This document shows, one piece after another, positions 8,309 to 64,000 of a stretch of 64,000 bases of DNA. The stretch's first letter is position 1; every line of letters begins with the position of its first letter. The notes under the pieces were generated by a model, which saw nothing but the letters and a program-made list of their open reading frames with translations, was not told the origin of the DNA and made no database searches. The translations under genes were made by a program, and so were the position numbers. This DNA comes from Corynebacterium mustelae (lineage in GTDB: Bacteria > Actinomycetota > Actinomycetes > Mycobacteriales > Mycobacteriaceae), in NCBI RefSeq assembly GCF_001020985.1, contig NZ_CP011542.1, positions 1,054,001 to 1,118,000 on the forward strand. The letters run 5' to 3'.

Positions 8309-8327
8309 GCGAAAACGAGGTAGAACA

Positions 8328-9161
8328 ATGACTAATGCTAGTACTGCTACGAGCCATGATGTTCCCGTCATTGAACTAAAAAATGTGCACGTTATCCACA
8401 CGTCACGCACGGGTAAGCTATTCCGCCCGGACAAAGTTCATGCTGTCAATGACGTCAGTATGAAGGTTTTCAAAGGTAAAACCCTGGGCATCGTGGGTGA
8501 GTCTGGTTGTGGTAAATCAACCACAGCGCGGGTCATGGTGGGGCTGCAAAAACCCACCAAGGGTGAAGTTCTATTTCGGGGCGAGCAGGCAAAATTTAAC
8601 GCATCGGGCCGCAAAGAGATTGGACGTGCAGTTTCTGTCGTGTTCCAAGACCCTGCGACTGCACTTAATCCGCGAATGATTGTGCGCGATGCTTTGACAG
8701 ACCCATTGCGGATTCATGGTATCGGAACGCCGCAATCGCGGGTTGAGCGGGTCAAGGAGTTGCTTGATCTTGTTGGCCTCCCGCAATCTGCTCTGGAAGT
8801 GTTACCGCGACAGATCTCCGGCGGTCAGCGCCAGCGTGTCGCTATAGCGCGTGCCTTGGTCTTGGAGCCAGACATCATCATCGCGGATGAACCAACCTCA
8901 GCGCTTGATGTTTCGGTTCGTGCCCAGGTGCTTAATCTGCTAACCGATTTGAAAGAAAAACTAGGTCTGGGCCTGGTATTCATCTCACATGACATTAATA
9001 CGGTTCGGTTTATTTCGGATCGGATCGCGGTGATGAATAAAGGCAAAGTGGTCGAAGAGCAAAGCACACATGATATTTTCACGAATGCTAAGGACGACTA
9101 CACCCGGATGCTGCTGTCGGCGGTTCCATCTCTAGTACAAGAGCCACACAGCGCATTTTAA
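8328..9161 (+). CDS. siaI: Sialic acid ABC transporter, second ATPase (SiaI-like, DppF type)
   Basis: 277-residue cytoplasmic ATPase of the DppF/OppF type that pairs with the ATPase half of the preceding fusion. Visible motifs are Walker A GESGCGKST near residue 58, Q-loop VFQDPATALNPR, signature ISGGQRQR, Walker B IIIADEPTSALD and switch ISHDIN. It is slightly shorter than many DppF proteins because the C-terminal extension is reduced. It starts 19 bases after the fusion gene with GAGGTAGAA as ribosome-binding site, and nanA follows after 40 bases, so import and catabolism share a transcript. Confidence 0.88.
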   Translation: MTNASTATSHDVPVIELKNVHVIHTSRTGKLFRPDKVHAVNDVSMKVFKGKTLGIVGESGCGKSTTARVMVGLQKPTKGEVLFRGEQAKFNASGRKEIGRAVSVVFQDPATALNPRMIVRDALTDPLRIHGIGTPQSRVERVKELLDLVGLPQSALEVLPRQISGGQRQRVAIARALVLEPDIIIADEPTSALDVSVRAQVLNLLTDLKEKLGLGLVFISHDINTVRFISDRIAVMNKGKVVEEQSTHDIFTNAKDDYTRMLLSAVPSLVQEPHSAF

Positions 9162-9201
9162 GCTTCACACGTTTGTTCACTAACTTATGAAAGGTTCATT
9201 C

Positions 9202-10122
9202 ATGTCTACGGATTTCCGTGGGGTCATTCCACCTGTTGTTACTCCATTAACCGAAACAGGGGAGTTTGACCGCGACAGTTACAAGCGGCTGATCGACAAG
9301 CTTGTCGACGCCGGGGTGTCCGGGCTCTTTGTTCTTGGCTCCTCCGGCGAGGTGGTTTTCTCCACCGATGCCCGTCGGCGGGAAATCATCGCGGCTGCAG
9401 TGGAATTCGCCGCTGGCCGGGTACCGGTCATGGTGGGCTGCATCGACACCGAAACGCTACGGGTGATTGAGCACGCAAAAGTGGCCCAGGAGCTCGGAGC
9501 TGATGCGATTGTTGTTACCGCCCCGTTCTATGCGCTTCAGGGATTGGAAGAAATAGAACGACATTTCCGCATGGTTAAGCAAGCAGTGGACCTGCCACTT
9601 TTCGCTTACGATATTCCGGTATGCGTACACACGAAGCTTCCAGGCTCGTTGCTGGTGAAACTCGGTACCGAAGGGGTTCTTGCTGGTGTCAAGGACTCTT
9701 CCGGTGATGATGTTGCGTTCCGCTTCCTGTGCCAGGACAATGAAAAAGCGGGGCATCCGCTCACCATTCTCACCGGCCATGAGGTTGTGGTCGATGGGGC
9801 ATATCTTTCAGGTGCGGACGGTTGCGTGCCGGGGTTGGGCAACGTCGATCCGGTTGGCTACGTCAAACAGTGGCAGGCATACCAAGCTGGCGATTGGGAA
9901 ACAGTGCGCAGTGAGCAAGACCGGTTAGCTGAGCTTATGCGCATCGTGTTCGCTCCAGAAGACATTCAGGGTTTTGGTGCTGGCGTAGGGTCGTTCAAGA
10001 CCGCATTGATGGTACAGGGGGTTTTTGCTTCCAATACCATGCCTGCCCCGGTTCGCACCTTAGAAGGCGAGACCGTCGACCGCATCGCGGACATTCTGCG
10101 CGCGACAGGCGTGCTGGATTAA
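9202..10122 (+). CDS. nanA: N-acetylneuraminate lyase
   Basis: 306-residue class I aldolase of the NAL/DHDPS family. It should cleave N-acetylneuraminate into N-acetylmannosamine and pyruvate. The sequence shows the GSSGE substrate-carboxylate motif near residue 46, the catalytic tyrosine in FAYDIPV and the Schiff-base lysine in GVKDSSGD. By sequence alone dihydrodipicolinate synthase is possible, but its place between a sialic acid transporter and nanE settles the call. I chose ATG 9202 because GAAAGG lies seven bases upstream; the ATG at 9187 overlaps that site and has none of its own. Confidence 0.88.
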   Translation: MSTDFRGVIPPVVTPLTETGEFDRDSYKRLIDKLVDAGVSGLFVLGSSGEVVFSTDARRREIIAAAVEFAAGRVPVMVGCIDTETLRVIEHAKVAQELGADAIVVTAPFYALQGLEEIERHFRMVKQAVDLPLFAYDIPVCVHTKLPGSLLVKLGTEGVLAGVKDSSGDDVAFRFLCQDNEKAGHPLTILTGHEVVVDGAYLSGADGCVPGLGNVDPVGYVKQWQAYQAGDWETVRSEQDRLAELMRIVFAPEDIQGFGAGVGSFKTALMVQGVFASNTMPAPVRTLEGETVDRIADILRATGVLD

Positions 10123-13644: not shown

Positions 13645-14424
13645 ATGGAAATAATCATCGCCCAGGATGGGGCTGCTGTTGCGCAGTTCGCTGCCAATAT
13701 CTTCGAAAAATACATCCGAGGTGGAAAAACGTTGGGGCTAGCCACCGGATCAACACCGGTTGCCATGTACCAAGAACTCATCCGGCGGCATAACGAAGAG
13801 GGCTTGAGTTTTAGCGACTGCACTGCCTTCCTGTTGGATGAATATGTCGGATTGGCTAAAGAACACGAACAAAGCTATTACGCCACCATCCGGAGGGAAC
13901 TAACCAGTCACGTTGATATTGATGACGCAAAGGTGTTTAGCCCGGACGGCACCAATCCGGATCCGACTGCTATTGCCGCAGCGGGCCAAGCCTACGATGC
14001 TGCGATTCGGGATGCTGGGGGTATCGACATCCAATTGCTGGGGATCGGCACCGATGGTCATATCGGTTTCAACGAGCCTGGTTCCTCGCTCAGTTCTCGT
14101 ACTCGGATGAAAATTCTCCATCCACAAACCATCGCCGATAATTCCCGGTTTTTTGGCTCGGCTGAAGATGTGCCGGTTCGGGTTCTCACCCAGGGCTTGG
14201 GCACCATCGGTGAAGCCGGACACCTGCTCTTGCTGGCAACTGGCGAGAATAAGGCCGATGCGATTGCGGCAACAGTTGAAGGTGCGGTATCAGCACACTG
14301 CCCAGCCTCAATTTTGCAGCTACATCAGCACGCAACCGTGATTTGTGATGAAGCAGCCGCTGCCAAACTTAAGCACAAGGAGTACTATCGCTTCGCGTTT
14401 GAAAACAATCCGGCCTGGCGGTAG
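13645..14424 (+). CDS. nagB: Glucosamine-6-phosphate deaminase
   Basis: 259-residue isomerase/deaminase converting glucosamine-6-phosphate to fructose-6-phosphate and ammonia, the last step of the pathway encoded here. Family motifs are [12 protein letters not shown] near residue 33, FLLDEYVGL near residue 68, and the active-site [14 protein letters not shown] with its Asp, His and Glu. The length matches short bacterial NagB proteins. AAAGGTGAG, overlapping the end of nagA, serves as ribosome-binding site. A hairpin follows at 14445-14487. Confidence 0.95.
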
Positions 14425-14444
14425 TTCGATCCGTCAGTAGCTTT

Positions 14445-14487
14445 GGTAGGGTGCCCTCTTCCCGTGCTAAGCACTAGGGCACCGACC
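14445..14487 (+). terminator. Weak hairpin after nagB
   Basis: GTGCCCT pairs with AGGGCAC, with flanking GGT/ACC pairing interrupted by mismatches. There is no T-run afterwards. It may mark the end of the sialic acid operon, but it is a poor intrinsic terminator. Confidence 0.3.
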
Positions 14488-14623
14488 AATCCCATGGCCC
14501 TTTGATACGGGTTTATGATTGATAGATAAAATTCTGATAGGTGCATTTCACCAGCGGATATTCTGAATACAAAGTGTTATCAAGACATGCTGGGGATAAT
14601 ACCCATCGTTCGTGGTTGGCGGG

Positions 14624-14629
14624 TAAATT
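14624..14629 (+). promoter_or_regulatory. Candidate -10 box for a leaderless ksgA transcript
   Basis: TAAATT fits the actinobacterial -10 pattern TANANT and lies eight bases before the ksgA ATG. No Shine-Dalgarno sequence is visible between them. This spacing would place the transcription start at or next to the A of ATG. Confidence 0.35.
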
Positions 14630-14637
14630 AGACTCTC

Positions 14638-15489
14638 ATGGACAATATACAATTATTGGGACCGGCCGACATTCGGGCGTTGGCGGAGACATTAGATGTC
14701 ACGCCCACCAAAAAGCTCGGCCAAAATTTTCTCCATGATCCCAATACTGTCCGGATGATTATTGCCGCCGCTGAATTAGATGATGAAACCCGTAGCCACA
14801 TCGTCGAAATTGGTCCTGGACTCGGGTCGCTCACGCTAGGGTTAATAGAAAAATCCCCTAAAGTAACGGCAGTGGAGATCGACCATCGATTAGCTGCACA
14901 GTTACCGCAAACCGTCGAAAAGCACGCGCCCGACTACGTCGATCGACTGAGTGTTATCGAACGCAATGCCTTAGACATCACAGCCGAGGACATCGAAAAC
15001 CCCACTGCGTTGGTAGCTAACCTGCCATATAATGTCTCCGTACCAGTACTTCTGCACTTTTTAGAAACTTTTCCCACCATCGTACGAGTATTGGTGATGG
15101 TGCAAGCCGAAGTCGCTGACCGGCTAGCTGCGCAACCAGGAAATAAAATCTATGGCGTCCCCAGCGTCAAAGCGGCCTTCTACGGGGACGTGCGCAAAGC
15201 CGGCGCGATTGGCAAGAACGTCTTCTGGCCCGCGCCGAAAATCGATTCCGGACTGGTACGCATCGACTGCGTGCGGCCGTATCCAGCCGAGTTGAAGGCA
15301 CGCGTGTTTCCGCTTATCGACGCCGCCTTCCTGCAACGACGCAAAACGCTGCGCGCGGCGCTCACCGGTGTGTATGGCTCCGGAGCTGCCGCCGAAGAGG
15401 CGCTAATTGCTGCCGGAATTAACCCCACTCTACGAGGCGAAACACTCACCATTGCCGACTACATCCGACTAGCACAAGGGCATCCATAA
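14638..15489 (+). CDS. rsmA: 16S rRNA (adenine1518-N6/adenine1519-N6)-dimethyltransferase
   Basis: 283-residue methyltransferase (RsmA/KsgA) that dimethylates two adenines near the 3' end of 16S rRNA during small-subunit assembly. Visible features are [13 protein letters not shown] near residue 23, the SAM-binding [11 protein letters not shown], and the catalytic NLPYNVSVP. The C-terminal domain carries [10 protein letters not shown]. It lies directly before ispE, an order usual in actinobacteria. It has no clear ribosome-binding site and may be expressed from a leaderless transcript. Confidence 0.95.
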
Positions 15490-15494
15490 AAATC

Positions 15495-16400
15495 ATGTAC
15501 CCCCCAACCACTGTTACCGCCTACGCTCACGGGAAAATCAATCTACACCTTGGCGTCGGATCGTTACGCAGCGACGGTTACCACGACCTGGTGACGATTT
15601 TTCAGTCTGTTGATCGACACGACGTAGTCACTTTAGAGGTTATGGACGGCTTGCCAGGTGAAATCCTGGAATTAACCTGCGCCACTCGTGGCGTTCCCAC
15701 CGATGAAACCAATTTAGCGTGGCGGGCGGTGGCTGCTGTTTTTGCCGCTGCGCCGGATCCGGCGGCGCTGCCTGCAGTATGCATCGACATTACGAAAAAG
15801 ATTCCTACCGCGGGTGGCATGGCGGGCGGCAGTGCTGACGCGGCTGCCGCGTTGCTTGCGGCAAACCACCTGATCGGCGCCCCGCTGACAAAGGAAGAGC
15901 TATTAAAACTTGCTGCTGATTTGGGTAGCGATGTGCCATTTACCCTGCTTGGCGGCACTGCGATCGGTACCGGGCGCGGCGAAAACCTCACCACGGTGTT
16001 AAACCGTGCCACCTTGCATTGGGTATTGGCTTTTTCCTCAGCTGGTTTAAGCACCCCCGATGTCTTCCGTACCTTGGATAATCTAGGGCATACCCCGCAC
16101 CTAGATTCCACCGAATTGCAACAGGCGCTGGCCGCAGGTAACCCAGAAACCATCGCGGGACTACTTCATAACGATTTACAGCCCGCTGCAATCAGTCTGC
16201 AACCAGAAATTCGCACGACGCTGCGGCTGGGCGAAGAAGCGGGTGCGTTGGCTGGCATCGTGTCAGGATCGGGTCCTACCTGCGCGTTTTTATGTGCCGA
16301 TGCGCAATCAGCTCAGGAGGTAGCCGCAGAATTATCGCTGCATAGTGCCGTGGCGGTGACAACCAGCCCGGCTAAGGGTGCTTATTTGGAAGGGCACTAG
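15495..16400 (+). CDS. ispE: 4-diphosphocytidyl-2-C-methyl-D-erythritol kinase
   Basis: 301-residue GHMP kinase of the non-mevalonate isoprenoid pathway. It phosphorylates the 2-hydroxyl of CDP-methylerythritol. Motifs: N-terminal AHGKINLHL with the substrate Lys, the glycine-rich ATP loop PTAGGMAGGSADAAA near residue 105, DLGSDVPF with the catalytic Asp, and SGSGPTCAF near the C-terminus. The start is six bases after the rsmA stop, so the two are probably co-transcribed. The next 660 bp carry no convincing gene. Confidence 0.95.
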   Translation: MYPPTTVTAYAHGKINLHLGVGSLRSDGYHDLVTIFQSVDRHDVVTLEVMDGLPGEILELTCATRGVPTDETNLAWRAVAAVFAAAPDPAALPAVCIDITKKIPTAGGMAGGSADAAAALLAANHLIGAPLTKEELLKLAADLGSDVPFTLLGGTAIGTGRGENLTTVLNRATLHWVLAFSSAGLSTPDVFRTLDNLGHTPHLDSTELQQALAAGNPETIAGLLHNDLQPAAISLQPEIRTTLRLGEEAGALAGIVSGSGPTCAFLCADAQSAQEVAAELSLHSAVAVTTSPAKGAYLEGH

Positions 16401-50864: not shown

Positions 50865-51788
50865 ATGCGAAAGCCACTGATCGTGCCGGTTGCGGTCATC
50901 ACAGCAACCGGGATGGCATTCCCACCAGTAAGCCAGGCAGATCCCACTGCCGGGCAACCAGAGAGGGTGTGCGCTAATAAGATGCTTCTGCACGAAGGCA
51001 CCACTGCGTTGCGAGTGGAGCGTATCGACGATAGCTTTACCCTGAAACTGCAAGACGAAACTTCGCATTACCACCCTGAAACCCAAATGCGGGAAGTAGA
51101 AGATGTGGTTATCGGTATTAAAGACAACAGTTACCTTGAGCGCACTGAAATGGAATTAGGTGACTCGAATCTGGATTTTCTGGGACCCGTGGGGGGACGG
51201 TTCTACAAAATGAGTGACGGGACGGGTGGTCGGGTTCACGTTGAATTTGATACCACCGCCTTGGATTTTGCCCAGCACAATAACAAGGTCACGACCCATC
51301 TTGATCCAGTTTCCATGCCAACCGATACGTCTTTCGGCATCTACTTGTATATCTCGTCTCGGGTGGAGCGGGAAGTACTCGTTGACTCGTTGCGAAGCGA
51401 CTACAGTTTCGACACGAAAAAGCCAGACCAGAATTCCTTTGCCTGGGGGTTCTCGAAGCCCGGTGTCTATACATTTGACGCGTACTACAGTGCTGGAACC
51501 CCGACGGGTGGCAAGATTCAAAGCCCGAAGAAGCGGCTTACGATCGTCGTTGGCGACGAGTACTTTAATAGGTGCAAGCAGGTAGCACTTCCGGAATCGG
51601 AGGCTAATAATCCGGTGCCAACGGAGACCACCCAGCCGAATTTCAACACGGACACAATCAATCCCAGCCAACCGGATACGCCGAAGGCGAAGGATAAATC
51701 TTCGTCCCAGGCATTGGCCAAAATCTTTGGCGTCCTCGGCGGCGCTTTAACCACGGTGTGGGAGTTTATCCGCAAGGTTTTTGCCTAG
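50865..51788 (+). CDS. Secreted surface-repeat protein, His-less paralogue
   Basis: 307-residue protein with a signal peptide (MRKPLIVPVAVITATGMAFP, cleavage near SQAD) and a C-terminal hydrophobic segment (about residues 285-303) after a Pro/Thr/Lys-rich stalk. The body is clearly paralogous to the C-terminal domain of the 54942 protein: LDFLGPVGGRFYKM matches LDFLVPVGEKFYHL, HLDPVSMPTDTSFGI matches HLEPITMPNDAIFGV, and WGFSKPGVYTFDAYY matches WAFTKPGVYRFKTFY. The H-A-H before the Trp is replaced by QNSFA, so the proposed metal ligands are absent. It stands apart from the ABC operon, separated by prfC. Confidence 0.72.
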   Translation: MRKPLIVPVAVITATGMAFPPVSQADPTAGQPERVCANKMLLHEGTTALRVERIDDSFTLKLQDETSHYHPETQMREVEDVVIGIKDNSYLERTEMELGDSNLDFLGPVGGRFYKMSDGTGGRVHVEFDTTALDFAQHNNKVTTHLDPVSMPTDTSFGIYLYISSRVEREVLVDSLRSDYSFDTKKPDQNSFAWGFSKPGVYTFDAYYSAGTPTGGKIQSPKKRLTIVVGDEYFNRCKQVALPESEANNPVPTETTQPNFNTDTINPSQPDTPKAKDKSSSQALAKIFGVLGGALTTVWEFIRKVFA

Positions 51789-54586: not shown

Positions 54587-54941
54587 GGGTATCAGTGTAC
54601 GGCCACCACCGGAAAAGATGCAGAGATTTGTACCCATGTCTGCGCTAAAGAACGGCGACACAACTGGCCAATGGAAACCTGAAATCGAGATAGGTGAATA
54701 TCAAGTAGCGTTTAAGTTAATGAAAGGATTCTGGAATTGTTGTCGGCGGTATGACGCTAGGGTACCCCTTGTTGGGGGAGGGGTTTAAAGTCGAAAGTGC
54801 TGGAAATACTGGGGAAATTCGAGTGCGGTTGTGGGCTTAGATGATAATTAATCCGATTCTTTGCAAATGAAAATCAGTAGCTTTAAGGTATTGAGAGTTC
54901 TTAATTGGATTGATTTTCAATTGCTTTTGGGAGGCAAAAGA
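54587..54941 (+). other. Upstream region of the surface-repeat/metal ABC operon
   Basis: About 355 bp between the divergent SDR gene and the operon, without a supportable gene. It is AT-rich towards its end. TGATAAT lies at 54842-54848, and TGAAAATCA at about 54868 is the reverse complement of TGATTTTCA at about 54911. These are possible half-sites of a Zur/Fur-type metalloregulator but are not arranged as one compact palindrome. Confidence 0.4.
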
Positions 54942-57254
54942 ATGTCCCGCTCAATAACAAAAATAATGGCCGCATTAACAGTCAGCGCGGTGATTTTTCC
55001 TAGCGCGGCTCACGCGGGCCCGGACGACGGTAAAACCGTGATCACCAGAACCCATGTTGACTCGCCAAAAACGTTTTGGGATCCCGCAACAAAAACCTTT
55101 GACCAAAAAACCTCTGCTGGTAACGACGTTCTCCATGAGTTCGATTCCTCGGTGATTTATTTAGGCAAAGGCTGGAGTCGACGAGGTAAAAACCAATACC
55201 AATTCACCATTCCCGATGATGGTCACCTCACCGAAGTCGGTGCCCCAGGCGACGTTTTTTATGCAGGACCGAGCAATGTTATTGGGCCTTACCCGCTATG
55301 GTGGGGGTTTGGGGCCGGGAGCCTTCCGCTTAACGATTTTCAAAATGACAACGTGGTGCTTGAGCTTGTCGACGTAGACGGCCCTGGTGAAGTTCATTTT
55401 TTCACCCACTACGACAATTACCCAGCGGGGTTACGGAAATTCTTAGGGTCGACCGCCCAAAGCACACGCATCTGGCCCTTGACTAGCGGAGATCATACGC
55501 ATAACACTATTTTATTCACCAAACCTGGTCGGCATATTATCACCTATCGGACGATAGCCAAGCTCAAGGACGGAACCACTGTCGAATCCGGAGAAAAGCG
55601 GCAAACCGTCCAAGTAGGAGGTACCGAGCCACGCAAGGAAGCGTCGCAAAGCTTGGAAGAACGCTACGCGGCCGCCCCAGAAGGAAACCTTGCCGAAGCC
55701 GGATATGAGCTAAGCATCGCCCCCTATAAACCCGCCCAACCCAAGGAAGGTGACAAAAACCTGGAATTGGTCAAGTTCCAGGCTAAAGACACCAGCGTTA
55801 GCGGCACCCTAACACTGCTTAACGACGGCTACCATCTTGCCGACATCGACGTTGTCAACGGATACGCGGAATGGCCAGACCTGTTTGGTGCTAAAACGTC
55901 CATGCTGCAGGCGGTATTCATTCCGGCTACTGAATCCGGTGCGCGTTGGATTTCACCTGTGATTTCACGCAGCTTTCTAAGCAGCCACACAGTTTCTTCC
56001 GAGCAGAACCCAGGACAGCTTGTTGCACCGACCAAGAACCCGGCAAACGTAAGGTTCTCTTCACCTGCAAGCCTGGAAAAAGACGCGACGGTCTCGGTAG
56101 AAATCGACGATGTGCCTGGCTCAAGCGATTTTGCGAAACTAACAGTCACTGTTGATGATCCCAGTTTCACCGGTCTGCTACGAGGCGGCTTTGCTGACAA
56201 ATACACCGATACAGTGACGACAGATCCCGCGGAGGCACCCATTCTTAACGGACGTGCAGAATTCTTCGTAGAACGCGAGAGCATTGCAGGCCGTTACCCC
56301 AAACTTAAGATTATTCCGCACCCCACGCACAACGCTCTCACTGCAACGATTGCACCCGAGCAACAGATTCCGGAAGCAGGAAGTTTAACGCTGCCATCAG
56401 GCACGATAACCCGCGCACCTAAATCTGCTGATACGAGCCCAAATGATCCGTCAAACCAATCACACCGATGCGGTGAGCAGTGGCTTCTAGCTTCCGGGCA
56501 CACCGACCTTGAAGCCCGACGCGACGGCGATGCTTTCACGATGACCTTGTTGGACCAAACCAACACCGAGGGCTTTGAGACATACCGCCGAAAGGTCAGC
56601 GATGTAATCAACGTAGTTCGTGATAATGCGCTAAGTAAGCGGGAAAAAGGACTAGCGAAACCTGAGCTTGATTTCCTTGTTCCAGTTGGTGAGAAGTTCT
56701 ATCATCTGCCACAAAATTCCAAGCAGGATATTTTGTGGCCAGGGTACAACACTGAACGGTTAAATTACGAGGAATTTTCCGGTTCTGTTGATCTACACCT
56801 GGAACCAATCACCATGCCTAACGATGCCATATTCGGTGTCTTTAGTGAAAACGGATTGGCAGGGGATATTAAAGTTCTTGCCAATTCGGCAGCAAAGGAT
56901 CACGTAATCGAAACGGACCTCGCCACACACGCGCATGTCGGTTGGGCGTTTACCAAACCTGGTGTTTATCGGTTCAAAACCTTCTACAAGGCGACCATGA
57001 AGGACGGCACCGATGTGTCTTCCGCACCAGAAACCATGACCTTCGTGGTTGGTGCACAGCCTGGTACTGAATGCCAGCAGTTGGATAACTCCCAGACCCC
57101 GCCCGCAAATGACGGCTCTGCGAAATTGAAAGGCGGACATATTGCCGCAATTGTGGCGGCGATTATCGGTGTGATTGCCGCAGTCGCTGCCGCGGTTCTC
57201 AGTGGTCCAGCACGGAACATGCTGCAATCAGCCTTAGCCCGGCTGCGGTTTTAA
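54942..57254 (+). CDS. Large surface-anchored repeat protein (choice-of-anchor M type)
   Basis: 770-residue exported protein. The ATG at 54942 has GGGAGGC upstream and starts a signal peptide (MSRSITKIMAALTVSAVIF...AHA). It has two surface-repeat domains: the first peaks at TSGDHTHNTILFTKPGRHIITYR near residue 183, the second at THAHVGWAFTKPGVYRFKTFY near residue 661, each followed by a strand ending in VVG/VQVG. The roughly 300 residues between look like beta-rich Ig-type modules. A C-terminal transmembrane helix (about 733-755) is followed by a short basic tail. I infer a membrane-tethered extracellular metal-binding protein and first gene of the operon. Confidence 0.75.
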   Translation: MSRSITKIMAALTVSAVIFPSAAHAGPDDGKTVITRTHVDSPKTFWDPATKTFDQKTSAGNDVLHEFDSSVIYLGKGWSRRGKNQYQFTIPDDGHLTEVGAPGDVFYAGPSNVIGPYPLWWGFGAGSLPLNDFQNDNVVLELVDVDGPGEVHFFTHYDNYPAGLRKFLGSTAQSTRIWPLTSGDHTHNTILFTKPGRHIITYRTIAKLKDGTTVESGEKRQTVQVGGTEPRKEASQSLEERYAAAPEGNLAEAGYELSIAPYKPAQPKEGDKNLELVKFQAKDTSVSGTLTLLNDGYHLADIDVVNGYAEWPDLFGAKTSMLQAVFIPATESGARWISPVISRSFLSSHTVSSEQNPGQLVAPTKNPANVRFSSPASLEKDATVSVEIDDVPGSSDFAKLTVTVDDPSFTGLLRGGFADKYTDTVTTDPAEAPILNGRAEFFVERESIAGRYPKLKIIPHPTHNALTATIAPEQQIPEAGSLTLPSGTITRAPKSADTSPNDPSNQSHRCGEQWLLASGHTDLEARRDGDAFTMTLLDQTNTEGFETYRRKVSDVINVVRDNALSKREKGLAKPELDFLVPVGEKFYHLPQNSKQDILWPGYNTERLNYEEFSGSVDLHLEPITMPNDAIFGVFSENGLAGDIKVLANSAAKDHVIETDLATHAHVGWAFTKPGVYRFKTFYKATMKDGTDVSSAPETMTFVVGAQPGTECQQLDNSQTPPANDGSAKLKGGHIAAIVAAIIGVIAAVAAAVLSGPARNMLQSALARLRF

Positions 57255-57314
57255 ACACACAAAAACTTCCAGCGTTCTTGTTGGCCAAACCATTCATTTC
57301 CATGAGGAGGAAAA

Positions 57315-58100
57315 ATGAAACTTCGTACTCGACTAACAGCAACAGTTGCCGCTGTTGCGACCGCTGCGGCGCTTAGCACCTCAGGTGTGGCACATGCCCA
57401 GGAAACGACACTAAGCAAAGGGCACGTGGATGTTTTTCATGTGTCGGCCACCGATGATGGTGGGCTTAAGCTGAATATGAAAGAAGACATCACCGGGATA
57501 GCTGTCGAACGTGATGCAGAATCAGCAGTCCTGGAGGCAAACTCCCGCGCATGGACCGCTGAGACGAAGAACCTTGACTTTGTTGGCAAAGAGGCCGTCT
57601 ACTTGCCACTATCCCAAGCTGAAAATCCCGAGGTTTTGTTCCCCGGCTGGGACACCACCAAGGTGCGAACCAAGAACTTCAAGGAAATCGATCTGAAGAT
57701 CAAGGAATTTTCCGGACCGGGCGAGTTGTATCTGTTTAATCGTGATGGCGGTAAAGCCAACCCTGTTGCTGCCGATGGAAACTACAAGATCGCCAGCGGC
57801 TCCGTGATTCCGGTTAAATTCCCAACTCACGCGCACGCCGGTTGGGTGTTTACAAAGCCTGGTACCTACACCATGAAGGTTGAAGCGACCGGAAACGGAA
57901 AAACCAGCAACACTGCAACCTACACTTTCAAAGTTGCGGAGAAGGAAAAATCTGGAGCTGCCCCGGCTCCTGCTCCGGGTGATACATCGAAGCCTTCCTC
58001 CATCAGCACTGGTGGCATCATCGGAATCGTCATCGCTGTACTGGGCGTGCTCGGTGCTGCGATCGCAGCGTTGATGGGTGGGAAACTACCCCGATTCTAA
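57315..58100 (+). CDS. Surface-anchored repeat protein, single domain
   Basis: 261-residue exported protein with GAGGAGG before the start and a signal peptide ending near AHAQE. One surface-repeat domain spans about residues 33-210: SKGHVDVFHVS at its start, FVGKEAVYLPLSQ, LFPGWDTT, EFSGPGELYLF, then THAHAGWVFTKPGTYTMKVEAT near 169-190. A Pro/Ala linker precedes a C-terminal transmembrane helix (about 230-253). TIGRFAM describes such actinobacterial surface-anchored domains beside metal ABC transporters. It lies 60 bp after the 770-residue protein gene; a hairpin follows. Confidence 0.8.
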   Translation: MKLRTRLTATVAAVATAAALSTSGVAHAQETTLSKGHVDVFHVSATDDGGLKLNMKEDITGIAVERDAESAVLEANSRAWTAETKNLDFVGKEAVYLPLSQAENPEVLFPGWDTTKVRTKNFKEIDLKIKEFSGPGELYLFNRDGGKANPVAADGNYKIASGSVIPVKFPTHAHAGWVFTKPGTYTMKVEATGNGKTSNTATYTFKVAEKEKSGAAPAPAPGDTSKPSSISTGGIIGIVIAVLGVLGAAIAALMGGKLPRF

Positions 58101-58115
58101 TCACCACACTTTTGC

Positions 58116-58144
58116 TTCGTCGCCGCTTGATAGGCGGTGACGAA
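58116..58144 (+). terminator. Internal hairpin in the surface-repeat operon
   Basis: TTCGTCGCCGC pairs with GCGGTGACGAA over 11 bases with one mismatch and a seven-base loop. No long T-run follows (AACTCACC). It may attenuate transcription into the downstream transporter genes or stabilise the upstream mRNA. Confidence 0.45.
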
Positions 58145-58183
58145 AACTCACCCCGTTAGTATTTTGTTGGGAATATTTTTCAC

Positions 58184-60013
58184 ATGTTTATAGCGAAAAA
58201 CCCCACCATAACGGTTAACTCGCAAGGCGCACCTTGTACCGCAGCCAGCCAATACCCGTTGCGGCAAGCGTGTGCCGTTGCGGCCGTTATGGGACTATTT
58301 CTGTTATCGCTCTTTGTACCTGCGGTTTCGCAGAATTTACGCTTAAGCGACGGACATGTTGATGCTTTCACCGTGATCGTTGAGGACGGTGATCTGAAAT
58401 TAGTATTGAAGGAAGACATCACCGGCAGTGGGGTGCATCGTGCCCCGGAATCCGTGGTGCTAGTCGTATCAGATAGCGCATATAGCGATGCCACCTCTGC
58501 GGTACCTGCGATCGGTGGCGCAAGTTATTATCTCCCTCAGGCTCAACAATCTGGGCTGCTATGGCCAGGTTGGGACACGTTGGGGGCGCAAGCAATCGCC
58601 CAAAACATCGATTTGAATTTTGAATCGGTATCCGGGCCGGGTGAGGTCTTCGTATTTGAAAACAGCGGTGGTGGAGTGCAATCTGTCACCTCAGATGGTT
58701 CGTTTAGCTTATCCAGCGGATCGGTGATTAACCAGCCATTTCCAGCGCACCGACATGTTCACTGGGCTTTTACCCAGCCCGGAACGTATACGATGCAGGT
58801 ATCTGCCGCGAGCGGTTCCCGTACAAGCAATACCGCCACCTACACCTGGGAAGTAGGAAGCGCCACACCTGGTGGAAATCCGGACAATGCATCCACAGGT
58901 ACTGGTAATGCACCCAATACCGCGCAGCAACCAGCTGCCCCTGGGAACCGACATAATCCAACCCCATCCCAAGGGCAAGCGACCGGCGGTGCAACCGCAC
59001 AACCTGGGCGAACCGGCGGTACAGCCACAGTCGGTGGCGGTGCTTCGAGTACAGGTGGCGTGGCAACTGGTGGCGCAGTAGCGGGTGCGGCAACTGGTGG
59101 CGGTGCTAGCGGGGGCAGTTGCAGCCCAGCTGTAATTCCCATGATGAAGGATGACCGGACTGTCCCAGCGACCTGGCGAAATCTCAGCGAGATTCAATTT
59201 GAACTCGGTGGTGCCGCGAAGAAAGATTTACCTGTCGCGATCGGGCCAGTGCCGAAAGGGCCAGTGTGGATGATCGGTTCTACTCAGGAACCAAACGTTC
59301 CGTGGGTGGGCGCCAATTCCCAGCACCCCAGCATGTTAGAGCACACTCAGGGGTCCGTGACGTGGGAACTGGTTGGGTTCTCTGGGCCCGGTCCGATGGT
59401 TGTCTATAGTCAGGGCGGTTTAGGCCAAGTAGTGGGTCAAGAATGGTTCCGGGGTGCGAATAACCAAGCGCAAGGTAGTTATACCATTGGTGCGAATGCC
59501 CATGTTCACCCCAATTGGGTGTTTGGGGCACCAGGCGTCTACCACGTATCCATTCGACAAACCACCACCTTGAAATCTGGCGAGAAAGTCGCTGGAACTG
59601 GCACGGTGGTGTTTAAAGTTGGCAGTGGTAGCCAAAGCGGACACTTTGACTTAGGTGCGGCAATCGACCCAGCAGGCGGCAACTGCGATCCAGGCTTAGT
59701 CGCCGCACAAGGCATCGCGCCTGCATCCCAAGCTACAGGCGGTGAAGCTGTTACTGATAATTCTCTGAGCGGCGAAGTCGCCGATGCGGCGGGTGGGATT
59801 ACCGCTGTGGGTAAAAACGCTGCCGCAGCATCAGAAGCCGACGAACCCGCCATAACCTTGGCGGCACAAATCGTCCAGACCTTACCTTATGTGATTTTAG
59901 GCTTGGGGCTGTTCGTTCTTGGTGCGGGAACCAGTAACCTCAGTGCGGCGGTACAGCGTCGAAAAGCGGCTAGCACAAGCACGGCGGACGCAACTGCCAA
60001 GGATGCGTCATGA
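58184..60013 (+). CDS. Surface-anchored repeat protein, two domains with Gly-rich linker
   Basis: 609-residue exported protein. A long N-terminus (about 24 residues) precedes the hydrophobic signal segment (AVAAVMGLFLLSLFVP). Domain 1 begins at LSDGHVDAF and contains FPAHRHVHWAFTQPGTY near residue 189. A Gly/Thr/Ala-Pro-rich linker covers about 226-315. Domain 2 contains NAHVHPNWVFGAPGVYHV near residue 438. A single cysteine pair is possible (GSCSPAV, GNCDPG). A C-terminal transmembrane helix (about 564-590) is followed by a basic tail. It overlaps the binding-protein gene by four bases (ATGA). It likely presents two metal-binding domains outside the membrane. Confidence 0.78.
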   Translation: MFIAKNPTITVNSQGAPCTAASQYPLRQACAVAAVMGLFLLSLFVPAVSQNLRLSDGHVDAFTVIVEDGDLKLVLKEDITGSGVHRAPESVVLVVSDSAYSDATSAVPAIGGASYYLPQAQQSGLLWPGWDTLGAQAIAQNIDLNFESVSGPGEVFVFENSGGGVQSVTSDGSFSLSSGSVINQPFPAHRHVHWAFTQPGTYTMQVSAASGSRTSNTATYTWEVGSATPGGNPDNASTGTGNAPNTAQQPAAPGNRHNPTPSQGQATGGATAQPGRTGGTATVGGGASSTGGVATGGAVAGAATGGGASGGSCSPAVIPMMKDDRTVPATWRNLSEIQFELGGAAKKDLPVAIGPVPKGPVWMIGSTQEPNVPWVGANSQHPSMLEHTQGSVTWELVGFSGPGPMVVYSQGGLGQVVGQEWFRGANNQAQGSYTIGANAHVHPNWVFGAPGVYHVSIRQTTTLKSGEKVAGTGTVVFKVGSGSQSGHFDLGAAIDPAGGNCDPGLVAAQGIAPASQATGGEAVTDNSLSGEVADAAGGITAVGKNAAAASEADEPAITLAAQIVQTLPYVILGLGLFVLGAGTSNLSAAVQRRKAASTSTADATAKDAS

Positions 60014-61629
60014 ATCGGCGAACCCGAGGCAGACGAGTGATCGCCCAGATACATGTCAGCTTCGCACTTGGGCTCGCCGGAATTACCGTGGCCAGTTGCG
60101 CAGCAGACGCGGTACCGTCATCGGTTGCTGGTGCCCCTAATAGCAACGACAACGTGATCGACATTGTCGCCACTACGCCGATCATTGCGGATCTTGCCCG
60201 AAACGTTGCAGGCGATCGCGCTCGTGTTACCTCAGTGATGCCGCTTGGCTCCGATCCCCACAGCTACGAGCCGGGATTACGTAGCGTTCGCAACATTGCA
60301 AACGCGGACATAATTTTCAGCAACGGTCTCCTGCTGGAACAACAATCCCTGCTGCGTACCGCTCAAGAATCCCGGCTTCAAGACGTACCGTTCGTGGAAT
60401 TAGCTGATGCATCACCTCGCCACGGTGGTGAGTTGATTCCGCTGGTGGAAAACATCGCATTGGATACTGTGTGGTTGGGGATGCGCATTGCAGGCGACGG
60501 TGCGCAACTCGGGGCCCAAAAAACCAGCGGAGTGGACATGCACCTGAAAGCCGCGTCCGGCCCCGGCGATGCCGCAGCATATGTCACATCAACGTTCGGT
60601 TCCCCGGAGGTACTCTTTAACACAAGAGACGGCATTGACTTAGCCGACAGCACTATCCTGCCTGTCGACGCACACACTCACGTATCCTGGGCGTTTAGCA
60701 AACCCGGCGAATACCAGTTGACCTTTGGCGCAACGCTTGACACCCCCACTGGCCCGGTTGCGATCGATGATGCAACGATCACCGTCGCCGTAGGTGTGGA
60801 CCCCCACGCGATTGCAGCGAAACGCAACGCGCACATCATCGACTCTGGGCACGTGGATGTCACTGCGGACATTACACAGAAACGAATGCTTTTACGCGGC
60901 GACGCCCCTACCGGCACCGATACCTCATATAACTATGAACCAGAGGCCACCGTCGTTGTGGTGCCACCTAGCGTTTTACAAACCATTCCCGGTGAACCAG
61001 CGTTTAGATTCCTCGGCACCCCTGGATCAGAAGTTTACCTGCTGCCACAGGCAGTATTAGGAAAACACGTCCATGGCGAAGTAGACCCACACCTGTGGCA
61101 CTCGGTGAAAAATACCATCGCTATGGTGCGGGTCATCCAAGACGAACTTATCGCCATCGACCCCGGTGGTCGCGCCGATTATGTGGCCAACGCCAATGAG
61201 TACGTTGAAAAGCTCGACAACCTCGACCGCGATATACGGGCAAAAATTGCGCAGATTCCGCCGCAGCGTCGGCATCTAGTGACAACTCACGACGGCTACG
61301 CCTACCTAGGCGAGGATTACGACATTAATATTGCAGGATTTGTTACACCCAACCCAGCCATTGAACCGTCACCGCGCGACGTGATTGCGTTAACCCGGAC
61401 GCTAGAAAACCTACATGTTCCAGCCGTATTCTTAGAACCGAAACTGGCTGGTCGCGTTGGGGTGCTATCGGAGACAGCGCAGCGGTTGGGGATCGTAATC
61501 TGCACGATTCGTGGTGACACCCTTGATGAGCACGTGCCGACGTATGTGAAGCTGATGCGCACCAATGTTGACGAACTTGCCCGGTGTTTGGGGAAACCAG
61601 AAAGCCAAAGCATACAATCCGCAGAGTAA
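60010..61629 (+). CDS. Metal ABC transporter binding protein with inserted surface-repeat segments
   Basis: 539-residue ZnuA/TroA-type lipoprotein; the lipobox Cys is in TVASCAAD near residue 37. Lobe 1 has IVATTPIIADLARNVAG and the metal His in LGSDPHSYEP (about 84). At about residues 140-350 the binding protein is interrupted by surface-repeat sequence: first the domain's C-terminal part with AHTHVSWAFSKPGEY, then its N-terminal part DSGHVDVTAD...EVYLLPQA. The cluster A-I fold then resumes: GEVDPHLWH (metal His), TTHDGYAYLGEDY (His) and RGDTLDE (Asp). The normal family is about 300 residues. It matches the TIGRFAM anchored-repeat ABC transporter substrate-binding family. Zinc or manganese is inferred. 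Confidence 0.85.
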   Translation: MNRRTRGRRVIAQIHVSFALGLAGITVASCAADAVPSSVAGAPNSNDNVIDIVATTPIIADLARNVAGDRARVTSVMPLGSDPHSYEPGLRSVRNIANADIIFSNGLLLEQQSLLRTAQESRLQDVPFVELADASPRHGGELIPLVENIALDTVWLGMRIAGDGAQLGAQKTSGVDMHLKAASGPGDAAAYVTSTFGSPEVLFNTRDGIDLADSTILPVDAHTHVSWAFSKPGEYQLTFGATLDTPTGPVAIDDATITVAVGVDPHAIAAKRNAHIIDSGHVDVTADITQKRMLLRGDAPTGTDTSYNYEPEATVVVVPPSVLQTIPGEPAFRFLGTPGSEVYLLPQAVLGKHVHGEVDPHLWHSVKNTIAMVRVIQDELIAIDPGGRADYVANANEYVEKLDNLDRDIRAKIAQIPPQRRHLVTTHDGYAYLGEDYDINIAGFVTPNPAIEPSPRDVIALTRTLENLHVPAVFLEPKLAGRVGVLSETAQRLGIVICTIRGDTLDEHVPTYVKLMRTNVDELARCLGKPESQSIQSAE

Positions 61630-61721
61630 ACCGAGAAACGCTGAAAACCAGCTGGTGCTTTACGGGCCGACATCCGCTAGCGAACGTTACAACTTAAACC
61701 AACAGAACAAGAGGAAATGCA

Positions 61722-62666
61722 ATGATGAGGAAACTCACCCGACGAACCCCGCTCCGATCAGTCGCAGCCGTCGTGCTGGCGGCTGCCTGTCTTGCTACCA
61801 GCGCCGTGCCGGTTGCCGCAGGCGATCTCAATCAGGTTGTCAGTGCCGATGAAGCTATCGCCCCGGCCGGTGAGCTTATTGAATTTCGCTCCGGGCATGC
61901 CGATATCGGGCCGCTGATGGCGCCGAAGAAGGACGCTTCCGATGCGCCATTTTCCACCTATATTCGGGACGATTCCAGCGCCCCACCTGTGTGGCGCAGC
62001 CCAGAAGACGTGCTATTCGTGGTGGGGGACAACGCCAAACAAACCCTGCCAGAATCCGAAGACTTTGCATTCACCGGCGCGGCGCCAGGGGCATCGGTAT
62101 GGGTTGTTCCGCAGGTGGAACAGGTTGGTGTGCCGTGGGTGGGGTGGAATACCCAATCGCCAGCTTTTGTGGAGGCGATCACCGGCGGGATAACCATGAG
62201 CTTTATTGGGCATAGCGGGCCGGGGCAGTTCACGTTATTCCTGCAAAACGGTGGTTTTGAAAAGCCGCAACTGCTGTGGACTTCGGCTGATAAAACCGCC
62301 CAAGACATCTATGTCGATGCCAACACACATACCCACGCAAACTGGGTGTTCACGGAGCCGGGAATTCACCAGGTAGCGGTGAAGATAACTGCCGAATTGA
62401 AAGACGGTGGTGTGAAGGAGGACACAGAGATTTTAAGTTTCGCTGTGGGGGAAGAAGCGGACCTTCCTGCTGCCCAAGCGGTCACCTGGGATGGGGATTT
62501 TTTGGCCAAGGGTGATGAAAGCGGCGTGGCTGCCGTAGGTACCGTCGATCGTGCGGGAGAAAACCAAGCTGTGTTGTGGGCAATCATCGCCATAGTGGCG
62601 GTGCTAGTGATCGGCTCCATCATCGTGGTTATCAGGGCACTTGGTCGGCCGCGGGGTGAGAAGTGA
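61722..62666 (+). CDS. Surface-anchored repeat protein associated with the ABC transporter
   Basis: 314-residue exported protein. A Tat-neutral signal peptide (RTPLRSVAAVVLAAACLATSAVPVAA) is followed by one surface-repeat domain: FRSGHADIGPLM at the start, ASVWVVPQVEQVGVPWVGWNTQ, then NTHTHANWVFTEPGIHQVAVKI near residue 202. A C-terminal transmembrane helix covers about 284-303, with a basic end GRPRGEK. Its closest relatives by pattern are the ABC-transporter-associated repeat proteins. AGAGGA lies eight bases before the start. Its stop overlaps the GTG start of the ATPase gene. Confidence 0.8.
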   Translation: MMRKLTRRTPLRSVAAVVLAAACLATSAVPVAAGDLNQVVSADEAIAPAGELIEFRSGHADIGPLMAPKKDASDAPFSTYIRDDSSAPPVWRSPEDVLFVVGDNAKQTLPESEDFAFTGAAPGASVWVVPQVEQVGVPWVGWNTQSPAFVEAITGGITMSFIGHSGPGQFTLFLQNGGFEKPQLLWTSADKTAQDIYVDANTHTHANWVFTEPGIHQVAVKITAELKDGGVKEDTEILSFAVGEEADLPAAQAVTWDGDFLAKGDESGVAAVGTVDRAGENQAVLWAIIAIVAVLVIGSIIVVIRALGRPRGEK

Positions 62667-63463
62667 CGATCGACGTGCAATCACAACCCCAGTCACAACA
62701 ACAGCCACGAACTGCGCTGTTAACCGCCACCGACGTATCGGTGACACTTTCGGGGCGTCGTATTTTTGACTCCCTTAGCTTTTCCATGTCGGCCGGGGAA
62801 TTCGTCGGGCTTGTGGGGCCGAATGGTGCCGGAAAAACTACGTTTTTGCGAGCAATCTTAGGTCTAGTTCCAACGTCGTCTGGTGTGGTGGAAGTAGCAG
62901 GCAACAAAGGGCGTAAGCTGCGATCGGCGGTGGGTTACGTGCCACAACGGCACGAATTCGCCTGGGATTTTCCGATTTCAATTCGTGAATGTGTCGCAAA
63001 CGGCCGCACCGGTGTACTCGGATGGGTGCGCCGTCCGGGCCGCAGTGACTACGATGCAGTCGACGAGGCTATTGCCCGGGTGGGGTTGGAATCCCTCGCA
63101 TATCGCCCTATCGGCCAACTTTCGGGTGGTCAACGGCAACGCGTGCTGGTGGCGCGGGCGCTATCGACCAAACCGCAGGTTTTGCTTTTCGACGAACCCT
63201 TCACCGGTTTGGACATGCCGACCGCCGAACAATTAACCCGCCTGTTTTCCGACCTGGCGGATGCTGGCACCGCCATTATCATGTCAACCCATGACATTGG
63301 CGAAGCGCTGCATTCCTGCCACCGGCTGGTGCTGTTTAAAAACGGCATTCGTGCCGACGGTTCCCCTTCGGAATTAACGGACAAAACCCTATGGTGTGAC
63401 ACATTTGAGGTCGGCGAAAATTCGCCGCTGATAACCCTGGTGAGGGCACATACCCATGCTTGA
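62663..63463 (+). CDS. Metal ABC transporter ATPase (ZnuC/MntB type, anchored-repeat system)
   Basis: 266-residue ATPase. Walker A GPNGAGKTT is near residue 52, the Q-loop is in YVPQRHEFAWDFP near 94 with the F-P-I-S/V motif typical of zinc/manganese transporters, signature LSGGQRQRVL near 153, Walker B VLLFDEPFTGLD near 173 and the switch His in STHDIGEAL. The start is a GTG overlapping the previous stop (GTGA). It overlaps the permease gene by eight bases, so all three subunits and the surface protein are coupled. Confidence 0.9.
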   Translation: MTIDVQSQPQSQQQPRTALLTATDVSVTLSGRRIFDSLSFSMSAGEFVGLVGPNGAGKTTFLRAILGLVPTSSGVVEVAGNKGRKLRSAVGYVPQRHEFAWDFPISIRECVANGRTGVLGWVRRPGRSDYDAVDEAIARVGLESLAYRPIGQLSGGQRQRVLVARALSTKPQVLLFDEPFTGLDMPTAEQLTRLFSDLADAGTAIIMSTHDIGEALHSCHRLVLFKNGIRADGSPSELTDKTLWCDTFEVGENSPLITLVRAHTHA

Positions 63464-64000
63464 TATTTCTTTCATCGACTTCATCCACGATTTAACTAAC
63501 CCTGCCTTGGCCTTCTTACCTAAAGCCTTGCTGATGTCCGTCATGTCGGCGGTGGTCTGTGCCGTGGTGGGAACGTTTGTAGTGTTACGCGGCATGTCGT
63601 TTATCGGCGATGCCGTTGCCCATGCGGTTTTCCCGGGGCTGGCTATAGCATTCGCCCTCCAAATTTCGGTGCTGGTTGGTGGGGCGGTGGCCGGTGCGAC
63701 GGTTGCCCTGCTCATCGCGGTTTTCTCGCAGCGTCGACGCGTGAAGGAAGATGCCGTGATCGGTATTTTCTTCGCCGCGGCGTTCGCACTTGGTTTAGTG
63801 GTGATCTCCCGGATCCAGGGTTACACCGCCTCGTTAAATAACTTCCTCTTCGGTTCCATCACAGGTGTATCCACAACCGATTTGATCGTGGCTGGTGGGG
63901 TAGGGGTGCTGATTATCGGCGTGATCTTCCTGATCCTGCCGCAATTAACCGCCGTCGCTCTTGATCGGGAGACTGCCTTTGCCATGAACCTACCGGTTTT
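63456..64000 (+). CDS. Metal ABC transporter permease (ZnuB/ABC-3 type), partial
   Basis: The first 181 residues are in the window; the gene continues beyond it. The membrane helices and the family motif LRGMSFIGDAVAHAVFPGLA near residue 50 identify an ABC-3 family permease for zinc, manganese or iron. VKEDAVIGIFFAAAFALG and LFGSITGVS follow, as in ZnuB/MntC. It starts with ATG at 63456, sharing eight bases with the end of the ATPase gene. It completes the transporter with the binding protein and ATPase upstream. Confidence 0.9.
   Translation, partial: MLDISFIDFIHDLTNPALAFLPKALLMSVMSAVVCAVVGTFVVLRGMSFIGDAVAHAVFPGLAIAFALQISVLVGGAVAGATVALLIAVFSQRRRVKEDAVIGIFFAAAFALGLVVISRIQGYTASLNNFLFGSITGVSTTDLIVAGGVGVLIIGVIFLILPQLTAVALDRETAFAMNLPV

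Follow-up and report, generated by a model that had tools for sequence, protein, structure and literature searches.

Why should one surface domain recur in the exported proteins, the membrane-anchored partner and the receptor of a single metal transporter? The question is raised by a 64,000-nucleotide stretch of Corynebacterium mustelae (contig NZ_CP011542.1, positions 1,054,001 to 1,118,000; hereafter the window, whose coordinates are used throughout), in which seven copies of the M domain (NCBI 'choice-of-anchor M', TIGR03769) are spread over five genes around a metal ATP-binding cassette (ABC) transporter. By function, the locus belongs to a zinc-import system that has recently been characterised, and it shows a structural peculiarity that is new relative to the literature searched. 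It is probably a Zur-controlled anchored-repeat zinc importer operating as a homotypic relay, in which zinc would pass from wall proteins to ZnuE, then to a domain grafted on the receptor ZnuA and finally to ZnuCB. From sequence evidence, the apparently new elements are an insert at the loading loop of ZnuA that can be read as a circularly permuted M domain, further putative permutants in TIGR03773 proteins, and predicted Zur boxes.

Gene Cluster and Domain Family

From position 54942 on, seven co-directional genes encode three exported M-domain proteins, ZnuA, ZnuE, an ATPase and a permease. HxD and HxH denote the two histidine-containing motifs of the domain.

54902..54922, plus strand: predicted Zur operator preceding gene 1 (16.5 bits)
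54942..57254, plus strand: gene 1, exported, two M domains (residues 32-243 and about 508-706), C-terminal helix; HxD 55053-55061 (domain 1) and 56499-56507 (domain 2), HxH 55494-55502 (domain 1) and 56928-56936 (domain 2)
57315..58100, plus strand: gene 2, exported, one M domain, C-terminal helix; HxD 57423-57431, HxH 57828-57836
58184..60013, plus strand, predicted start codon: gene 3, TIGR03773 surface protein, normal-order domain 1 (residues 50-236), putatively permuted domain 2
59120..59686, plus strand: gene 3 domain 2, apparently circularly permuted; HxH 59501-59509, then HxD 59642-59650; Cys313 and Cys501 at its two ends
60010..61629, plus strand: znuA, lipoprotein metal receptor with inserted M domain (TIGR03772)
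60442..61059, plus strand: ZnuA insert, apparently circularly permuted M domain; HxH 60673-60681, then HxD 60850-60858
61722..62666, plus strand: znuE, one normal-order M domain, C-terminal helix; HxD 61896-61904, HxH 62328-62336
62663..63463, plus strand: znuC, ATP-binding subunit (TIGR03771, 335 bits, cut-off 269)
63456..64000, plus strand, continuing to 64349 past the window end: znuB, permease (TIGR03770, 413 bits for the full gene, cut-off 297)
64324-66018, outside the window (14324-16018 of locus L009): M-domain gene after znuB

The first-pass annotation of this DNA had described five genes with seven domain copies starting at 54942, which the sequence bears out. Searched against the anchored-repeat models it had pointed to (TIGR03769-TIGR03773), the receptor, ATPase, permease and surface protein all score above the curated cut-offs. 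TIGR03769 and NF038134 exceed theirs in all five M-domain proteins, TIGR03773 reaches 285 bits on gene 3 (cut-off 190), and TIGR03772 gives 705 bits on ZnuA (cut-off 350), in agreement with the proposal that the fifth M-domain protein is the transporter's own binding protein. With a profile based on ZnuE, the weakest copy matched in one piece still scored 36.4 bits (independent E-value 1.4e-12).

The motif originally described, H-x-H, is present in all copies but represents only half of the signature, as each copy also has a distant HxD. The latter lies 131-147 residues N-terminal to HxH in five copies; in the other two, the ZnuA copy and domain 2 of gene 3, it follows HxH. All seven copies thus carry both motifs, as in the HxD/HxH zinc proteins of C. 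diphtheriae.

A C-terminal hydrophobic stretch in place of an LPXTG-like signal was also correctly recognised for genes 1, 2, 3 and 5, the stretch being weakest in gene 3; within 80 residues of the C-terminus, no such signal was found in any of the eight M-domain proteins that were scanned. The genome has four sortase matches. Among related loci, the M-domain protein right before znuA carries LA[DEQ]TG or LPDTG followed by a helix in 13 named ones (L013, L014, L016-L020, L022-L025, L028, L029) and keeps the helix without a sorting signal in the window and in L011, L012, L015 and L026; L021 and L027 gave no such call.

The mechanism had been regarded as undescribed, a view that is out of date: genetics, thermal-shift data and Zur regulation have been published for C. 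diphtheriae. According to PMC6711530 (2019) and PMC12445094 (2025), znuAECB and znuF-445 are two Zur-repressed operons of that species. PMC12445094 already names the HxD/HxH motif, notes its reverse orientation in ZnuA, and reports that ZnuE and its histidines are required for low-zinc growth, that ZnuE, ZnuF and ZnuG show zinc-dependent thermal shifts, that ZnuF reaches the wall without known sortases, and that CmrA and CmrA2 are located elsewhere in the genome. Receptor, ZnuE, ATPase and permease are homologous between the two clusters, which also share HxD/HxH domains, the reversed ZnuA motif and Zur control (predicted here). They differ in that ZnuF (after znuB) and ZnuG of C. diphtheriae have normal-order domains, ZnuG with LPDTG; in a 12-kb stretch of a C. 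diphtheriae-like genome (L061) there is no permuted, cysteine-flanked second domain and there are no genes 1 and 2 before znuA. The main text of PMC12445094, as far as available, contains no word beginning with 'permut' and no 'disulfide'. In the open-access literature searched we found no paper joining circular permutation with a zinc receptor or surface protein, and none for TIGR03769; the term 'choice-of-anchor M' does occur in four papers listed there.

The Inserted Domain of ZnuA

The M domain of ZnuA appears to be a circular permutant, placed at about the metal-loading D-loop and shortly ahead of the second ligand. Compared with the ZnuE profile, the insert matches in two pieces (47.9 and 24.6 bits), profile positions 130-245 at residues 152-270 followed by positions 45-126 at residues 267-348. 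Rearranged to the standard order it gives a single match of 82.6 bits, compared with 49.6 and 26.8 bits for the native halves. The arrangement recurs among 121 ZnuA homologues: the C-half precedes the N-half in 114, the same is seen beside an extra M domain in 2, and the C-half alone was detected in 5. The motif order HxH, HxD, DPHxW holds in 117 of the 121, DPHxW being missing in 4; a stricter pattern fits 104, all HxH-first, and misses 17. The swapped order is found in all 20 ZnuA proteins taken from 19 named loci and from a C. diphtheriae-like genome, and the NCBI model shows it in a distant genome (G446) as well.

The insertion point follows from the alignment with Listeria MntA, whose residues 7-101 align to ZnuA residues 44-133 and residues 108-286 to 349-525. 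About 6 residues therefore seem to be replaced by about 215, the insert ending about 12 residues before ligand H361. In the predicted model the insert forms a single confident all-beta block, with a block-mean predicted local distance difference test (pLDDT) score of about 91 over residues 151-340 and values below 50 at residues 147-150 and 350-355. Fold comparison of ZnuA returned listed matches that cover the receptor part. By sequence, no solved structure matches the M domain, the best hits of ZnuE alone (E 0.9) and of the profile (E 0.2) both being unrelated proteins.

Cysteine-Flanked Domains in TIGR03773 Proteins

Domain 2 of gene 3 appears to be permuted differently from ZnuA, relatives show what looks like a third cut, and every arrangement has cysteines next to its chain ends. 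The comparison set comprised 121 TIGR03773 proteins, gene 3 and its 120 best-listed homologues. A GHxD motif lies C-terminal to an HxH in 118 of them, and 104 of these have a cysteine 122-138 residues before HxH and a second one 10-26 residues after GHxD; the other 14 have neither at these positions, and none has just one. In 96 of the 104 cysteine-pair proteins there is no upstream N-strand and the domain ends at GHxD; 7 show an upstream alignment and 1 a further domain behind. The rows are not independent: clustering of the 104 proteins leaves 65 groups at 90% identity and 37 at 70%.

An initial classification of the 14 others as lacking the cysteine pair was rejected, since they represent another permutant with the pair elsewhere. 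Here the profile runs from about 184 to 240 and then from about 50 to 184, and all 14 have a cysteine on either side of the permuted domain. One of them (P0312) holds two such domains, the first without the pair. Eleven of the 14 are mutually related (P0348 shares 81-86% identity with the other ten). The remaining 3 TIGR03773 proteins, without the C-terminal GHxD, keep the normal order, with a cysteine at or next to each end of the domain. In gene 1, domain 2 is likewise flanked by cysteines (residues 510 and 711).

Past its signal region, gene 3 contains two cysteines only, 313 and 501, and exactly two past residue 40 are found in 85 of the 104 cysteine-pair proteins. Owing to this pairing pattern, we infer a Cys313-Cys501 disulfide; such disulfides would close the permuted domains. 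In a quick tree of 102 hand-picked domains, the stapled permutants form one group (Shimodaira-Hasegawa-like approximate likelihood ratio test 95) nested in a larger group (99) with the third type and these 3 normal-order domains, the ZnuA permutants forming a separate group (99).

The reversed motif in ZnuA and gene 3 might instead stem from two unrelated half-domains or a degenerate repeat. The halves of the ZnuA insert do score separately, one half alone was detected in 5 of 121 ZnuA proteins, 7 of the 104 cysteine-pair proteins show an additional profile match to an N-strand further upstream, and the case for permutation comes entirely from profile, model and co-variation. Unrelated halves would, however, hardly span the profile once each (45-126 and 130-245), keep invariant motif residues in both parts and form one confident block. 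Co-variation (386 rows, effective number 218) further pairs positions 150-165 with 204-218, couples the N-half (84-90) to the C-half (228-236), and links one stretch, 120-135, both to residue 60 (one pair) and to residues 198-203, which supports, if indirectly, a predicted adjacency of the two halves. We therefore regard this alternative as very improbable and retain circular permutation.

Conservation of the Putative Zinc Site

HxD and HxH together may provide a four-ligand zinc site in each domain. Among the 330 domains in which every one of the four motif columns is aligned, 322 have both motifs intact; the collection was made with a motif-containing profile and is hence biased toward intact copies. 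Part or all of HxD is missing in the other 8, of which at least one (L017) is a permuted domain misread. A further copy lies upstream of the cluster:

50865-51788, plus strand: M-domain paralogue, four motif residues replaced, cysteines at residues 36 and 237 kept

Aligned to domain 2 of gene 1, this protein has T-x-A in place of HxD and Q-x-S in place of HxH, while NF038134 still gives 61 bits (cut-off 55). It could serve as a natural ligand-free control.

Metal Specificity and Predicted Zur Regulation

The earlier suggestion of a metal-binding surface family coupled to a transporter is probable, and of the two metals it had left open, zinc is favoured, mainly because of the homology to the zinc-regulated C. 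diphtheriae system and further because of the cleft ligands. ZnuA has the two-lobed cluster A-I receptor fold with a His3-Asp cleft (H84, H361, H427, D503) that is invariant in 59 homologues, and His427 aligns to a Glu in the manganese receptor PsaA. For PsaA, the residue names E205 and D280 were taken from titles, and their roles are presumed here.

For a manganese importer speak the best PDB sequence matches of ZnuA, which are manganese receptors (PsaA group, MntA), and the second-best NCBIfam model of ZnuC, a manganese one; fold comparison ties zinc, manganese and iron receptors, with MntC and YfeA level with AztC. The opposite is indicated by the three transporter subunits, which all exceed the cut-offs of the anchored-repeat system whose C. 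diphtheriae member is zinc-repressed, by the His replacing the PsaA Glu, by the second-best model of znuB (AztB), and by Zur-like sites together with one Fur-family match in the genome. AztC is also the best NCBIfam model for ZnuA behind TIGR03772, at 193 bits and below its cut-off of 350. A manganese importer is thus the least probable of the alternatives considered, and zinc uptake is well supported.

Regulation was predicted with a matrix built from four C. glutamicum Zur sites. With 16.5 bits, the site at 54902-54922 ranks first of all 63,980 21-mers of the window, ahead of three unrelated places at 14.2-14.9 bits, and 4 of 1000 shuffles of the 150-bp leader of gene 1 reach its score. A second site of 20.4 bits, reached by 0 of 1000 shuffles of its leader, is located at 64240, outside the window, inside the 3' end of znuB and before the following M-domain gene. 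It resembles the znuF promoter inside dip0441 of C. diphtheriae. The near relative L011 keeps both predicted sites, and L012, L015 and L026 have Zur-like sites of 19.7-22.3 bits near their gene 1. In the 150-bp leaders of genes 2 to 7 nothing convincing was found, the top score being 5.2 bits, a value that 29 of 1000 shuffles reached. The leader of the upstream paralogue gave 8.1 bits (22 of 1000 shuffles as high). A candidate upstream of gene 3, at 58165, ranked fifth in the window with 13.3 bits; it was dropped, as it overlaps the start codon and the matching L011 leader has none.

Predicted Zur boxes thus precede gene 1 and the gene after znuB, and at least two Zur-controlled units are likely. 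Of the single operon assumed in the first-pass annotation, the contiguous, co-directional genes stand, but the cluster probably comprises these several units and extends past the window with the gene after znuB.

A Possible Zinc Relay

In the proposed mechanism, one HxD/HxH domain with its presumed zinc site would serve every station: genes 1-3, the gene after znuB, ZnuE and the ZnuA insert. Zinc would be captured by the outer exported wall or surface proteins and carried to the membrane by ZnuE; the grafted domain of ZnuA would accept it and hand it over a short His-containing loop (residues 350-356) to the cleft site, for import by ZnuCB. The protein-to-protein hand-over and its direction are putative. 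A relay, as already suggested for this layout, would be compatible with the C. diphtheriae data.

A precedent is offered by AztC, one of the top fold matches of ZnuA: its D-loop (117-133), before His138, the second His ligand, is required for zinc acquisition from the chaperone AztD (PMC7463823). AztD is a free-standing beta-propeller, whereas the presumed acceptor of the present system forms part of the receptor itself, sits at about the D-loop and is the domain that the surface proteins also carry. Streptococcal AdcA with its ZinT-like domain and the Pht proteins likewise combine a receptor bearing an extra zinc domain with surface zinc proteins; those domains are different, however, and that of AdcA is C-terminal rather than inserted. 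A metagenome protein of 782 residues (P0107) joins ZnuA and ZnuE in one polypeptide, by eye without a membrane segment between them, and may be a natural fusion. A second candidate, P0027, was rejected as a ZnuE-ZnuA fusion: by eye this partial record is a TIGR03773-type wall protein with a normal-order domain running into ZnuA.

Several observations weigh against the relay. The fusion is a single metagenome protein. In C. diphtheriae, according to PMC12445094, deletion of znuF or znuG is harmless with the transporter present, deletion of znuA is mild, and zinc still shifted His-to-Ala ZnuE, so that the authors of that study had no proof of zinc binding by the motif. The outer M-domain proteins might be zinc stores or sponges rather than donors, with only ZnuE and ZnuA belonging to the uptake route; ZnuF and ZnuG inhibit low-zinc growth when ZnuAECB is absent and are dispensable with it (PMC12445094). 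Against stores argue the cluster and domain that the outer proteins share with the receptor, their zinc repression in C. diphtheriae, which does not fit an excess-zinc role (PMC6711530), and the longer lag without the znuF-445 operon (PMC12445094). We consider stores or sponges unlikely, though a more serious competitor than manganese import or unrelated half-domains, and prefer the relay.

The fuller picture is more tentative and somewhat doubtful as a whole: a homotypic relay with one site on the wall, at the membrane and in the receptor loop, in at least three permuted orders besides the normal one, and disulfide-closed at the cut ends outside the receptor. If true, it would constitute a natural series of stapled circular permutants with zinc moving between copies of one site. 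A little-explained named surface family would become a testable zinc hand-over chain, in a gene cluster whose C. diphtheriae counterpart is already known to matter for zinc supply, and the natural set of permuted versions of one domain would be useful for studies of protein folding and of protein-to-protein metal transfer.

Occurrence

The closest named ZnuA matches are from a Corynebacterium metagenome-assembled genome (86%) and C. felinum (73%), and a match (E up to 1e-40) occurs in 95 of 201 Corynebacterium genomes. In a phylum sample of 296 genomes, TIGR03772 matches 14, in 11 with its C-terminal part only and in 3 in full; it exceeds its cut-off in 3 and NF038134 is found in 4, the own genome included in both counts. 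A plasmid search yielded no record covering 80% of ZnuA; the ten matches listed are other metal receptors.

Genome-wide (3.47 Mb) there are ten TIGR03769 matches: 7 in the five cluster genes, 1 after znuB, 1 in the upstream paralogue and 1 elsewhere. This tenth copy (L010, 9973-10848, minus strand) has an intact motif and lies amid four long plus-strand proteins with similar repeats (L010, 4656-13161). The one of these four that was tested (8099-9439) gave a weak match to hexapeptide proteins of the YdcK/GlmU type.

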